From the NCBI GenBank assembly GCA_002747035.1, contig PDRZ01000020.1:113810-177809 (forward strand): DNA of 64,000 bases. The letters are read 5' to 3'. The stretch comes from Rhodobacterales bacterium (GTDB taxonomy: Bacteria > Pseudomonadota > Alphaproteobacteria > Rhodobacterales > Rhodobacteraceae). Shown here in pieces: positions 1 to 4,444 of this stretch; positions within the stretch are counted from its first letter, which is position 1, and each line of letters opens with the position of its first letter. The notes beneath the pieces were generated by a model, which was not told where the DNA came from, searched no databases, and worked only from the letters and a program-made list of their open reading frames with translations. The translations under genes and the position numbers were made by a program.

Positions 1-12
1 CAGGCTGTTCAT
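1..12 (-). CDS. start of next buf-operon gene (partial)
   Basis: The TGA stop of bufC (bases 9-11 on the minus strand) overlaps an ATG at 10-12 in an ATGA arrangement, so a further minus-strand gene probably begins here (Met-Asn-Ser-Leu) and runs off the window. In many bufferin operons the next gene is a DoxX-like membrane protein (bufD), but four codons cannot show that. Confidence 0.35.
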
Positions 13-764
13 GTATGTTTCTCATGTAGGGCGTGGGTGATGGCCTGGTCCTGCAACAGCAGGGTCAGCGTGGCCGTCAGATCAAAGTCGGGGGCAAGCG
101 TGGTGGCTGTGTCGGCCGCGTCTCCCAAGGGTGTGCCGACATTGAGCGCGGTCAGGAAGCTGGCTGCGCCGGGTCCCAGAAGCCGGGGGATAGGGTCAAA
201 TTCGGGCCGGGTGATCAACACGTTCTGGCCCTCGTTTGGCGGCTGGGGGGCGGTGTCACGGGTGTTGAAGACCCATATGCCATGGATCGGCCAGCGGGAG
301 CGGATCAGTTGAACACAAGGGGCAAGGGTGAGGCAGAGATGGGGCAGATCCTCGGGGTGGGCGGTCAGGGACGCGGGGTCCACCGTCTTTGCATCGGCGG
401 CGTGGTAGGATCGGCGCAGGGCCAGCTCCAGCCGCGCGGTATCGGCCAGATAGCCGAGATGGGCCAAGGGGTCGAAATTGGCCAGAAACCCGGGAAAGGC
501 CGCTCCGTAATGCATCATCAGCGGCGAACTGGGCGGATGCTGACGCAGGAAAACCCCGGCAACGGTGCGAAAATTCTCTTTGCCCAACAGTTTGGCGATG
601 ACGGGAAAGCCGGTTTCCAGGGCTTCGGTCAGGGACACGGCCACGTTGTTGCGATAGACCGAGAACCGCCTGCCGGCAGGAGCACCGTGCCCGTCCGTCA
701 ATCCTTGTGGCACGGGTTGGGAGGCGTCAAGGATCGCGGTGCGAAGAGTGGTCTGGTCGATCAT
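9..764 (-). CDS. bufC: BufC/HvfC-type partner protein (DUF2063)
   Basis: A 251-residue protein with the N-terminal DUF2063 'putative DNA-binding' domain (FSVYRNNVAVSLTEAL, then VAGVFLRQHPPSSPLMMHYG). In bufferin systems this protein works with the MNIO enzyme BufB as the precursor-recruiting partner that helps modify cysteines of the BufA peptide; despite the Pfam name it is not thought to act on DNA. It overlaps the bufB stop by 4 bp (761-764, ATGA), so the two are translationally coupled and probably made in equal amounts. The family and operon order are clear; the partner role rests on work on related operons. Confidence 0.85.
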   Translation of the reverse strand: MIDQTTLRTAILDASQPVPQGLTDGHGAPAGRRFSVYRNNVAVSLTEALETGFPVIAKLLGKENFRTVAGVFLRQHPPSSPLMMHYGAAFPGFLANFDPLAHLGYLADTARLELALRRSYHAADAKTVDPASLTAHPEDLPHLCLTLAPCVQLIRSRWPIHGIWVFNTRDTAPQPPNEGQNVLITRPEFDPIPRLLGPGAASFLTALNVGTPLGDAADTATTLAPDFDLTATLTLLLQDQAITHALHEKHT

Positions 765-1615
765 GCGGGCACCCGTTCAAGCGCATGTGCCGCGCGGGTG
801 GCTTCGGCGCAGAGAATGGGCCAGTCGGGCACATCCGTGTCCCATTCAATCAGAATGGGGCGGGGGCCGGATTGGGCCAGCGTGTGGTCCAGCAGCGCCC
901 AGACCGGGTCCACCACCTCGCGCCCATGGCTGTCGATCAACAGCGGTTTGCCGTGGTCATCTTCGTCCTCGTCATGCCCCCCAAGGTGGATTTCCCCGAC
1001 CTGGGCCAGGGGGAAGGCATCTATATAGCCCTTGGGCGAAAAGTCGAGATTGGTGGCGGAAACAAAAACATTGTTTACATCCAGCAGAAGACCACATCCG
1101 GTACGCCGGGCGATTTCGCGCAGGAAGTCGGGCTCGTCATAGGTGCTTTCGGCAAAGGCCAGATAGGAGGACGGGTTTTCCAGCAGCATCTGGCGACCCA
1201 GCGTCGTCTGAAGCTGATCTATATGGTCACAGACCCGGGTCAGGCTTTGCGTGGTATAGGGCAGGGGCAGCAGGTCGTTCAGGAACGCGTTTTCATGGCT
1301 GGACCATGCAAGGTGTTCGGAAAATGAGGCGGGATTGAGCCAATGGCACAGGTGTTTCAGGCGGGCAAGATGCGTGGGGTCCAGGGGGCCTTCTCCGCCG
1401 ATGGAAAGGCCGACGCCATGGACGGAAATCGGAAAACGTTCGGACAGGTGGCGCAGTTGAGCAAGCGGGCGGCCACCGTCACCCATGTAGTTTTCGGCGT
1501 GGATTTCAAGCCATCCCACGGGCTCGGGAGTCTTCAGGATGTCGTTGAAATGCTGAGGCTTGTACCCGACGCCGGGTGTGGCCGGTAAAGCGGTGCGAAG
1601 GTCTTGATCAAACAT
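761..1615 (-). CDS. bufB: BufB, DUF692 multinuclear non-heme iron oxygenase (MNIO)
   Basis: A 284-residue DUF692 protein with a TIM-barrel fold. MNIOs bind two or three irons and modify cysteines in ribosomal peptides. Family sequences seen include GVGYKPQHF near the N-terminus, WLEIHAENYMG, SVHGVGLSIGG, LLLDVNNVFV and EIHLGGH, which provide the His/Asp/Glu metal ligands. The open frame extends upstream to 1876, but the ATG at 1615 is preferred: GGAG lies just upstream and homologues begin near here. Predicted substrate is the small secreted peptide encoded just upstream (1692-1982). Confidence 0.9.
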   Translation of the reverse strand: MFDQDLRTALPATPGVGYKPQHFNDILKTPEPVGWLEIHAENYMGDGGRPLAQLRHLSERFPISVHGVGLSIGGEGPLDPTHLARLKHLCHWLNPASFSEHLAWSSHENAFLNDLLPLPYTTQSLTRVCDHIDQLQTTLGRQMLLENPSSYLAFAESTYDEPDFLREIARRTGCGLLLDVNNVFVSATNLDFSPKGYIDAFPLAQVGEIHLGGHDEDEDDHGKPLLIDSHGREVVDPVWALLDHTLAQSGPRPILIEWDTDVPDWPILCAEATRAAHALERVPA

Positions 1616-1632
1616 GCGACATCTCCGGTGGT

Positions 1633-1656
1633 CACGATTTTTATGTAAAAATCGTG
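1633..1656 (-). promoter_or_regulatory. perfect hairpin before the bufB ribosome binding site
   Basis: An 11-bp perfect inverted repeat (CACGATTTTTA / TAAAAATCGTG) with a 2-nt loop, in the bufA1-bufB gap just upstream of the bufB GGAG. It may lower or protect translation of the enzyme genes relative to the precursor gene. The role is inferred. Confidence 0.55.
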
Positions 1657-1682
1657 GGCGATGCGCCAGAAACGCATCGCCC
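1656..1682 (-). terminator. attenuator-like hairpin after bufA1
   Basis: A 10-bp perfect GC-rich stem (GGGCGATGCG / CGCATCGCCC) with a 7-nt loop, ten bases after the bufA1 stop and followed on the transcript by a U-containing run that is itself the second hairpin. It has the look of a partial terminator or 3'-end stabiliser allowing more bufA1 than bufBC transcript. Confidence 0.6.
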
Positions 1683-1691
1683 CGTTTTGAA

Positions 1692-1982
1692 TTATGCCGG
1701 CAGGTCGCGGTCCAGAGGTTCCAGCGAACCCATACGACCGCCTTCAACTTCCATGCTGGTGCAGGTGCCTTTGTCGACCAGTTTCCAGGCGTTGCCCTGG
1801 AAGTCGATGGTCGAGCTGCCCGCGCAGGTGGTGCCGGGGCCGGCGGCGCAGTCGTTTTTGCCCGCCAGGGCAACACCGAAGCATTTCTCTTTTTCGGCGG
1901 CTGCGGCAGGGACGGTGGCGGCTGCGGTCATCGCGGTTGCGACGGCACCAAACAGCGCGGCGGTTTTGAGTGTTTTGGACAT
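1692..1982 (-). CDS. bufA1: BufA1-type bufferin precursor peptide (DUF2282)
   Basis: A 96-residue protein with a Sec-type signal peptide (residues 1-29, cleavage after AAAA) and a small mature domain with four cysteines (C34, C45, C53, C74) in the DUF2282 pattern [12 protein letters not shown]. Bufferins are ribosomal peptides whose cysteines are converted by the MNIO BufB and which bind copper in the periplasm. It is first in the operon and separated from bufB by two tandem hairpins, as expected for a product needed in excess. The family is clear from the pattern; copper binding and modification are inferred from relatives. Confidence 0.88.
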
Positions 1983-2151
1983 CGGGAACTCCCTTGAGGT
2001 TGATAATCACGTATCGCGTTTTGCGATGTCCCCAGCCTAGCCAGGATTGGCGTTCACGGGCCACTCACGTCGGCGTGTGTCACGGATGCGTCAGGGCAAA
2101 CGTTGCGCGCGTGAGGTGGTGTAATAGGGCACAGGCGGTCAACCCGTTGAA
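1983..2151 (-). promoter_or_regulatory. bufferin operon promoter region
   Basis: The space between bufA1 and the thrS terminator. It contains an ATCGC-GTTTT-GCGAT inverted repeat (2013-2027) 31 bp before the bufA1 start and an AGGGAG ribosome binding site at about 1990. Related operons are driven by ECF sigma factors or copper regulators, but I cannot assign a promoter consensus here. Confidence 0.35.
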
Positions 2152-2229: not shown

Positions 2230-4188
2230 TTACCTGGCAAACCGGGCCAGATCGGGCGGCGTCGCTTCGGCTGTCAGGGATGTTACAACCTCGGCCAGGG
2301 GTTGAACGCTGGTCCGTTTTTCGCCCAGACGCCGTAAGGTTACGGTGCGTTCTTCCACCTCGCGATGCCCGACCGCGAGGATGACCGGCACCTTGGTCAG
2401 CGAGTGTTCACGGACCTTGTAGTTGATCTTTTCGTTGCGGGTATCCGCCTCGGCCCGCACCCCGGCGGCGCGCAATTGGGCCACTACCTCATGCACATAG
2501 TCATCGGCGTCCGAGATGATCGAGGCCACGACCACCTGGCGCGGTGCCAGCCAGAAGGGCAGTTTGCCCGCGTGGCTTTCGATCAGGATGCCGATGAAGC
2601 GTTCAAACGATCCCAACGTCGCGCGGTGCAACATCACCGGGCGGTGTTTGTCGCCATCTGCGCCGATATAGGTGGCGTCCAGTCGTTCGGGCAGGACGAA
2701 GTCCACCTGGAACGTGCCGCATTGCCAGACCCGGCCAATGGCATCGGTCAGTGAAAACTCCAGCTTTGGTCCGTAAAACGCGCCTTCGCCCGGGTTCAGT
2801 TCTGGCTCCACCCCGGCGGCGCGGGTGGCGGAGAGCAGGGCGCTTTCCGCCTTGTCCCATACCTCGTCCGATCCGGCGCGTTTTTCGGGGCGGTCCGAGA
2901 ACAGCACCTTGAACTCTTCGAAGCCCAGATCCTTGTAGACCGCCGACAGAAATCGGATGAACTCTGCCGTTTCCGCTTCGATCTGATCCTCGGTCGAGAA
3001 AATATGGGCGTCATCCTGAGTAAAGCCGCGCACCCGCATGATCCCGTGCAGCGCGCCCGAGGGTTCATACCGGTTACACGACCCGAATTCGGCCATGCGC
3101 AGCGGCAGGTCGCGATAGGATTTCAGACCTTGTTTGAAAATTTCCACGTGGCAGGGGCAGTTCATGGGTTTGAGCGCATTCACCGCCTTTTCGCGGGCGT
3201 GTTCTTCGTCGACTTCGACGATGAACATGTTTTCCTGGTACTTGTCCCAGTGGCCCGAGCGTTCCCAAAGCTTGCGATCCACCACTTGTGGCGTGTTCAC
3301 TTCGACATAGCCGCCCGCAGTCTGCATCCGGCGCATGTAATCCTGAAGCTGGACATAGATATTCCAGCCATTGGGATGCCAGAATACCTGACCCGGGGCT
3401 TCCTCCTGCATGTGGAACAGGTCCATTTCGCGGCCCAGCTTGCGGTGGTCGCGCTTGGCGGCCTCTTCCAGCATGTGCAGGTGTTTCTTGAGCTTTTCCT
3501 TGCCGGTGAAGGCGACGCCATAGATGCGTTGCAACATGGCGCGGTCGCTGTCCCCGCGCCAATAGGCCCCGGCCACCGACATCAGCTTGAACGCGTCGCC
3601 CGGCACCTGTCCGGTATGTTGCAGGTGCGGCCCACGGCACAGATCCTGCCAATCCCCGTGCCAATACATGCGCAGCGGTTCGTCGCCCGGGATCGCCTGA
3701 ATCAGCTCAACCTTGTAGGGTTCGTTATTGTCCTCATAGAATTTTATCGCCCGGTCACGATCCCAGACTTCGGTGGTCACCGGGTCACGCTTGTTGATGA
3801 TTTCCTTCATCCTGGCTTCGATCTGGCCAAGGTCTTCGGGAGTGAAGGGCTCGTCCCGGTCGAAATCGTAATACCAGCCGTTTTCGATCACCGGGCCAAT
3901 GGTGACTTTGACGTCGGGCCAGATTTCCTGCACTGCGCGGGCCATGATATGGGCGGCGTCGTGGCGGATCAGCTCGTTGGCCTGTTCTTCGTCTTTCATG
4001 GTGAGAATGGCGATCGAGGCATCGGCATCAATGGGCCATTGCAGGTCGAAATGCGCACCGTTCACGGTCGCTGAAATGGCCTTTTTGCCCAGAGAGGTGG
4101 AAATGCTGGCTGCAACCTCGGCAGGGGTGACACCTGCGTCATAGGAACGGGTATTGCCATCGGGAAAGGTAAGGGAAATCTGTGCCAT
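2230..4188 (-). CDS. thrS: threonine--tRNA ligase
   Basis: A 652-residue class II aminoacyl-tRNA synthetase that charges tRNA-Thr. Domains in order: N-terminal TGS (about 1-62), the editing domain with the HxxxH pair (H76, H80), the catalytic core with zinc-binding [12 protein letters not shown], motif 2 ([15 protein letters not shown]), motif 3 ([13 protein letters not shown]), and a C-terminal anticodon-binding domain ([19 protein letters not shown]). The frame is open to 4221 but the ATG at 4188 has GAGGAG upstream and gives the usual [11 protein letters not shown] start. Full length and standard in every motif. Confidence 0.97.
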
Positions 4189-4444
4189 CTGTGGCAAGCT
4201 CCTCGTCAGTTTGGCGCCCACGGAACGCCCGGTTGCGGGTATATGGTTCGGGCCGTGTTCTGCGCCTTTGGCCCAGGTAAGTCAAGGCAGGAGCCGGGGA
4301 CGTACGGGTTTGAGTACCCCGGGGTTTTGGGCAGGTTGGTGCCGGTTGGTTTCGGGCTGGTTTCAGGGGGGGGATATTGAGAAGGGTAAAGACCGGGGGT
4401 GCGGGACAAAACAGACCTTCCGGGTTTGCGCAGCAGGTCTGTTT
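4189..4444. other. intergenic, thrS leader side
   Basis: No gene is supported here. The stretch should hold the thrS promoter. Open frames in it have low-complexity or proline-rich translations without family resemblance. Confidence 0.4.

Follow-up and report, generated by a model that had tools for sequence, protein, structure and literature searches.

A bufferin-1 operon of a Rhodobacterales bacterium with a putative double-dyad operator before bufA1 and a hairpin between bufA1 and bufB

How is a bufferin operon switched where SigF-NrsF is not at hand, and how might one operon deliver a precursor peptide and its modifying enzyme in unequal amounts? Both questions are raised by a 64,000-nucleotide (nt) stretch of a Rhodobacterales bacterium (contig PDRZ01000020.1, positions 113,810 to 177,809; hereafter the window), cut from contig C37 of a genome of 2.52 Mb that is 77.7% complete. 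In its first 2 kb the window carries bufA1, bufB and bufC on the minus strand. The locus is very probably a complete bufferin-1 (Buf1) operon, bufA1-bufB-bufC-bufD, and it is an ordinary Buf1 representative within a known family. A 33-bp double dyad upstream of bufA1 and a hairpin between bufA1 and bufB are common to most of the relatives examined and, as a pair, may be new control elements; no description of them was found in the passages searched of the bufferin, MNIO and DUF2282/DUF692 literature, a set that lies outside the founding paper. Our joint reading, to which we give a probability of about 0.5, is that a roseobacter-family regulator recognises a 14-bp dyad, TCAC-N6-GTGA, and that the hairpin sets a surplus of precursor over maturase. 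The genes of the operon are as follows.

1692-1982, minus strand: bufA1, bufferin precursor of the DUF2282 family, 96 amino acids (PF10048, E 1.2e-23)
761-1615 including the stop, minus strand: bufB, predicted bufferin maturase of the MNIO/DUF692 family, 284 amino acids (PF05114, MbnB_TglH_ChrH, E 2.9e-103; NF050167)
9-764, minus strand: bufC, DUF2063 partner protein, 251 amino acids (PF09836, E 6.7e-24)
1-12, minus strand: 5' end of bufD, DoxX family, 186 amino acids (PF07681, E 1.2e-7); the remainder is at C37:113261-113809, which is L002:13261-13809

A sequence-only reading of this stretch had set bufA1, bufB and bufC in series on one strand, and all three genes were found where it placed them, with Pfam scores above the gathering cut-offs (83.2 bits against 22.4 for BufA1 with PF10048, and 84.4 against 27.2 for BufC with PF09836). 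The ATGA overlap that it described between bufB and bufC was confirmed at 761-764. Its advice to look for a DoxX gene, bufD, to the left of bufC was borne out, as such a gene is present (PF07681, 32.7 bits against a cut-off of 23.6) and overlaps bufC by a further ATGA at 9-12; bufD begins at window position 12, leaves the window at the left end and occupies L002:13261-13821 as a whole. Family scores, gene order, the conserved BufB residues described below and the presence of bufD together support the bufferin layout that had been proposed. Profile searches of the genome returned a single match each for DUF2282 and the MNIO family.

The relatives compared here are the best 80 of at least 553 matches to a BufB search, or 81 loci when the window is added. 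They come from roseobacters and marine alphaproteobacterial assemblies, with BufB identities of 75-84%, and are chiefly Ruegeria, Leisingera, Shimia, Marivita, Roseovarius and similar genera, which agrees with the roseobacter-type setting suggested earlier. Relatives of the A, C and D genes accompany bufB in all 80 kept records. More widely, 140 of 198 family genomes, sampled one per genus, carry DUF2282, as do 84/240 and 63/299 genomes of a class and a phylum sample, both of which include some same-family genomes. Eight loci (L119, L126, L129, L136, L142, L154, L160 and L167) have DUF2282 with no bufB detected just downstream, some of these stretches being short, and in one genome of the same class a DUF2282 open frame is interrupted by one in-frame TAG (G637:C6:952778-952939).

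BufB scores 376 bits with the MNIO_BufB equivalog model NF050167 (cut-off 310) and 56.8 bits with the MbnB model, and on these scores membership of the methanobactin group was rejected. The oxazolin (HvfABC) group was rejected likewise, BufB reaching 229 bits against the HvfB cut-off of 360 and BufC 51.9 bits against the HvfC cut-off of 142. Phmmer aligned BufB to 3bww, to the DUF692 protein 8hci and to MbnB chains; a PDB sequence search returned no relatives of BufA1 or BufC. In an alignment of 38 BufB proteins, that of the window among them, eleven residues (H66, H101, E146, N147, D179, N182, H210, D228, H230, E257 and D259) never vary, and N181 is conserved in at least 90% of the sequences. 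A DUF692 protein stripped of its conserved His/Asp/Glu ligands, a prospect raised in the sequence-only reading, is not what the 38-protein alignment holds, as the His/Asp/Glu/Asn set is kept. We take H66, H101, E146, D179, H210 and E257 to be the ligands of MNIO metal sites 1 and 2. Through the 3bww alignment, and with an inferred numbering offset of one, N181, D228 and H230 correspond to HvfB N175, D242 and H244, and a change of any of these is reported to abolish HvfB activity (PMC13419390). By the same route, 3bww standing in for the FonB sequence as it does for that of HvfB, D259 corresponds to FonB Asp249, the proposed catalytic base (PMC13097082). On our reading of that alignment FonB Arg15, Arg16 and Phe250 fall on BufB K19, P20 and T260; P20 and T260 fit the published statement that neither FonB Arg16 nor Phe250 is conserved in DUF2282 enzymes (PMC13097082).

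The precursor had been described as having only four cysteines (34, 45, 53 and 74). Positions and count are right; the implied shortfall is not, since Buf1 precursors are reported to have four conserved cysteines, of which the central pair is modified and the first and last form a disulphide (PMC12452194), and the aligned relatives follow the same rule. The four cysteine columns are conserved in 81 or 82 of 82 aligned precursors, the sole gap belonging to a truncated sequence. The spacing found here, C-x10-C-x7-C-x20-C, is the commonest (75 of 88 DUF2282 proteins, with 10-8-20 in 7 and 10-6-20 in 6), and C-x10-C-x5-9-C-x20-C describes 138 of the 140 precursors of the family census. A reduced or degenerate precursor was therefore rejected, as was membership of the Buf2 (BufA2) group, for which BufA1 scores 18 bits against a cut-off of 60. 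Judged by eye, residues 1 to about 29 look like a Sec-type signal peptide, with a basic N-terminus, a hydrophobic stretch and an Ala-rich end before EKEKC. Two close bufA genes occur in L077 (3153-3533 and 3618-3962; Shimia sagamensis, before one bufB), in G007 (L030) and in G099.

By analogy with characterised relatives, BufA1 would be made as a Sec precursor, and BufB, as an iron MNIO, would act in the cytoplasm with its partner BufC to convert Cys45 and Cys53 into thiooxazoles. The peptide would then be exported, Cys34 and Cys74 would form a disulphide, and excess periplasmic copper would be chelated, with BufD as an accessory DoxX membrane protein.

What might switch the operon is suggested by two elements upstream of bufA1.

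2061-2093, minus strand (-111 to -79 from the bufA1 ATG): 33-bp double dyad, putative operator of the TGACGn4CGTGA nn CACGn4CGTGA type (motif model)
2034-2040, minus strand: -10-like element CTAGGCT, 20 nt downstream of the double dyad (conserved block)

The double dyad has the form TnACG-n4-CGTGA-nn-CACG-n4-CGTGA, which amounts to two TCAC-N6-GTGA-like sites. The motif model began from a k-mer seed chosen by eye and was refined on 58 non-redundant regions, with base-by-base shuffles as the control; its scores exceeded the 99th percentile of the shuffles in 79 of 80 usable upstream regions (window included) and in 57 of 58 non-redundant clusters; L113 was left out as its upstream sequence is too short. 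The one miss, L077, was scored before the second of its two bufA genes, and the element is present before the first (37.8). Inside bufB and after bufD all scores were below -11 (80 loci). Across 51 non-redundant upstream regions conservation resumes at columns 20-26 after the double dyad, in a -10-like block. The spacing between the two is near-constant, although the double dyad itself lies anywhere between 61 and 126 nt from bufA. A general sigma-70 scan, which is a weak test, did not report the 2034-2040 element and gave no sigma-70-like promoter in 1-2600.

The exact pattern occurs once in the genome, before bufA. When up to two mismatches were allowed, the window held two matches (0.04 expected by chance on average), which are the bufA site seen from each strand in turn, and the genome held nine, including these two, versus three for a reversed control; one further site with a single mismatch lies on contig C27. 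A multi-gene regulon was rejected, the bufA site being the only exact one in the genome. Across 41 relatives there were six exact matches (own included), all beside DUF2282 loci, and one-mismatch matches lay partly elsewhere. A regulator gene adjoining the operon was rejected too: the sole regulator-like cluster among the 25 neighbour clusters listed, an ArsR-type protein (by eye, with a C-terminal extension; for example L040:90-878), lies about 2.7 kb upstream of bufA in 10 of the 81 loci.

The Caulobacter operon is under SigF-NrsF control, and the published SigF promoter sequence is GTAACC-N16-CGAA (PMC3511200). Such control of the present copy was rejected, as its genome gives no NrsF match and no SigF-type promoter occurs in the 200 nt before bufA1, a result to be read with the incompleteness of the genome and with a short-spaced stretch in thrS (2230-4221, minus strand), the codirectional gene upstream of bufA1, which by its sequence encodes threonyl-tRNA synthetase. 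No sigF-nrsF pair stands beside the operon. NrsF (PF06532), which in the Caulobacter system is the anti-sigma factor of SigF, is found in 29 of the 198 family genomes, in 28 of them over the cut-off, which allowed a census of the 140 family genomes with DUF2282 (30 loci, 109 loci and the window). The double dyad was found in 92 of 118 loci from genomes without NrsF, in one of six with NrsF elsewhere and in none of the 16 where NrsF is nearby. A Fisher test of 92/118 against 1/22, with no correction for relatedness, gives 4.6e-11. The census scored only part of each upstream region, which makes misses likelier (L009 scored 1.2 there versus 18.7 on the whole locus). The 16 'NrsF nearby' genomes were assigned by hand from coordinates, with distances of up to about 3 kb (G026, G077), and G128 was counted as without NrsF, its match being under the cut-off and containing stops.

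Loci with NrsF nearby show a different arrangement. Upstream, 12 of the 16 have GTAAC-N15..18-CGAA and 15 have a single TCAC-N6-GTGA dyad when one mismatch is allowed (6 exact; shuffles 5.3%). Dyad and SigF-type promoter (search pattern G[T/G]AAC-N15..18-CGAA) occur together in 11 loci, and in 9 of these GTAAC follows the end of the dyad by 5-6 nt. The comparison group labelled as family loci without NrsF and with the operator comprised all of L200-L308 (108/109 usable) and includes some NrsF genomes. Among 49 loci from outside the family, 19 have the dyad before bufA when up to one mismatch is accepted (5 exact; shuffles 6.7%), and 19 have a SigF-type promoter. Both types of wiring may share a protein that binds the dyad.

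The second question, that of unequal output, turns on the 76-nt gap between bufA1 and bufB.

1656-1682, minus strand: GC-rich stem-loop, 12 pairs, loop of 3 (intergenic fold)
1634-1655, minus strand: second stem-loop, AT-rich, whose pairs take up the T run that follows the first stem (intergenic fold)

The gap folds at -30.9 kcal/mol (z -4.0), and none of 200 shuffles was as stable. A stem of at least nine uninterrupted pairs follows bufA in 73 of the 81 loci, against 3.6% of 810 dinucleotide shuffles. Elsewhere in these loci such stems were found in 0/81 of the last 90 nt of bufA, 2/81 inside bufB, 3/81 after bufB, 4/81 after bufC, 12/80 before bufA and 14/81 after bufD. In the family census the stem is present between bufA and bufB in 113 of 140 genomes, and in L077 the hairpin follows the first of the two bufA genes. 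It accompanies 14 of 25 bufB-adjacent loci of the class and 11 of 24 of the phylum; six of the phylum positives belong to the same family, and a tally from the rows gives 19 of 43 outside it. The 81 loci have 64 distinct 5' arms, so the structure is kept while its sequence changes. Within 20 Ruegeria-type hairpins (18 distinct), 6 of 13 pairs are constant and in three both partners change, and their covariation score was reached by only 1 of 500 shuffles; the set is 20 of 22, with L055 and L058 dropped as identical to L054, and the structure was derived from the same sequences. A known RNA family was rejected for the hairpin, since no Rfam match was found in 1-2600 at E up to 1.

In the joint reading a putative DNA-binding protein at the double dyad, beside an ordinary -10, would switch transcription in place of SigF-NrsF. 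The dyads would stand in tandem (centres 15 bp apart) before an ordinary promoter in loci without SigF-NrsF, and singly, just upstream of the SigF promoter, in loci with it. The occurrence of the dyad before bufA in some other proteobacteria would then imply a general bufferin regulator. The hairpin after bufA1 would stabilise the bufA1 message, partly terminate transcription or do both, and the stoichiometric precursor would thereby outnumber the enzyme; it would have been renewed many times in evolution, each time with a new sequence. We hold it an even chance that double dyad and hairpin both work as proposed. Because a bufferin binds stoichiometrically, less of the enzyme than of the peptide is presumably needed, and if the proposal is true the hairpin at the A/B junction explains unequal precursor and enzyme output from one operon. 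The double dyad offers a handle on the switching of bufferin operons without SigF-NrsF, for which the literature searched gave no answer, and the 33-bp element is usable directly, in a laboratory roseobacter, as bait for its putative regulator.

Several observations weigh against this picture of the operon and its control. The genome has no NrsF match, and at 77.7% completeness that absence is weak evidence. The stretch inside thrS, GTAACC-N14-CGAA at 2320-2343, is only two bases shorter than the SigF sequence. In the census, 26 of the 118 loci without NrsF fell below the double-dyad threshold; the motif was scored on its own 58 training sequences, and those relatives overlap the census in genus. 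The exact pattern and its one-mismatch forms gave any match in only 15 of the 41 relatives, with several one-mismatch matches away from bufA, and none of the 25 neighbour clusters listed for the 81 loci is a conserved regulator gene beside the operon. Of 8 loci outside the family that combine dyad and SigF-type promoter, only 3 have the two 4-5 nt apart. For the hairpin, stems of at least nine pairs also occur in 6 of 31 other codirectional gaps (40-150 nt) and at 8 of 42 convergent ends of the same loci, control gaps and neighbour genes having been called by a gene finder that is a length heuristic. A free T run (at least four T in 8) follows the hairpin in 14 of 81 loci, a count that misses T's inside the stem, and the three double-sided changes were reached by 94 of 500 shuffles, which is modest covariation. 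On the protein side, the BufC score lies far under the cut-off of the HvfC equivalog model, in a comparison that held no BufC-specific model. Lastly, a homologous cluster of Cupriavidus metallidurans is reported to have had no effect on copper resistance (PMC8224329).

The stems at 8 of the 42 convergent gene ends would also suit a hairpin that is a plain terminator or RNA-end stabiliser with no role in the precursor:enzyme ratio, bufBCD being transcribed from a promoter of their own after it. We consider this doubtful: the gap measures only 76 nt, the weak sigma-70 test gave no promoter in 1-2600, and the hairpin recurs at the same place across the 81 loci, its 5' arm taking 64 distinct forms. 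Ratios in other operons are reported to be set by internal stem-loops whose U tracts are weak (PMC9045158). For the double dyad, 69 of the 81 loci (window included) have a codirectional thrS homologue upstream, as would be expected if the element were part of the thrS end, or a structural element, and not a regulator site of bufA. That is improbable, given that the element stays with the -10-like block of bufA, that the single dyad of the NrsF-nearby loci stands mostly at a fixed distance from the SigF-type promoter, and that outside the family the dyad precedes bufA in 19 of 49 loci against 6.7% in shuffles.

Two further alternatives concern what the peptide is for and what is made of it. It seems unlikely, if less so than the thrS explanation, that this is a bufferin operon whose main role lies not with copper but with a different stress, whether from gold, silver, cadmium or chromate or of the oxidative or sulphur kind. 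Responses of related operons to gold, silver, chromate and cadmium have been described (PMC8224329, PMC3511200), the Cupriavidus cluster left copper resistance unaffected (PMC8224329), and a DoxX homologue is mentioned as protective against oxidative or sulphur stress, with roles for other metals possible (PMC12452194). Against this, sigF inactivation in Caulobacter severely affected growth with copper and left chromate and cadmium sensitivity unaffected (PMC8224329), and thiooxazole peptides are reported to bind copper (PMC13097082). Far less credible is a BufB product of the oxazolone-thioamide kind, as in methanobactin. An oxazolone-thioamide was originally assigned to the related oxazolin (PMC12452194); that structure has been revised to a 5-thiooxazole, all characterised MNIO-DUF2063 cases install thiooxazole (PMC13097082), and BufB scores 376 bits with the BufB model versus 56.8 with that of MbnB. 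Thiooxazole peptides are reported to have a band at 302-305 nm (PMC12538549).

The closest system is the bufferin 1 operon of Caulobacter vibrioides (CC3254-CC3257, SigF-NrsF controlled), known here from papers, which has the same four families in the order A-B-C-D (PMC3511200) and, like the present operon, a four-Cys DUF2282 precursor, with a signal peptide (PMC12452194) that in BufA1 is putative. The operon of the window differs in its surroundings, with no adjoining sigF-nrsF and no NrsF match in its incomplete genome, and in its promoter region: the 200 nt before bufA lack a SigF-type promoter, and a double dyad stands there together with a -10-like element of the ordinary kind. The captophorins (oxazolin HvfABC and fontiphorin) share an MNIO with a DUF2063 partner, a Cys-derived thiooxazole and copper binding (PMC13097082), the product and its copper binding being assigned here by analogy; their precursors have EGKCG repeats, whereas here a DUF2282 precursor without EGKCG is found and BufB falls short of the HvfB cut-off (229 against 360). 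Buf2 (BufA2) bufferins use the same enzyme pair, likely for the same function (PMC12452194), and have 6 or 12 cysteines, compared with four in BufA1, which scores 18 bits against their cut-off of 60. Thousands of members of the bufferin family have been collected (PMC12452194).

For the hairpin, comparable systems are the Rhodobacter puf operon and clostridial ABC-importer operons, whose genes are unrelated to bufferin genes and which likewise have an element after a gene whose product is needed in excess (PMC6238624, PMC9045158). The puf message has segments of unequal stability, and this is one contribution to its stoichiometry (PMC6238624). In the importer operons, stem-loops after the first gene, with GC-rich stems and weak or paired U tracts, partly terminate transcription and set ratios (PMC9045158).

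Beyond bufD, and convergent to it, lie two plus-strand genes, one for an ArsC-family protein (L002:12411-12737) and one for a 122-amino-acid protein with no Pfam match (L002:12776-13144). Look-alikes of the two, judged by eye, follow bufD in 52 and 41 of the 81 loci, respectively, the window's own copies lying outside the clusters listed.

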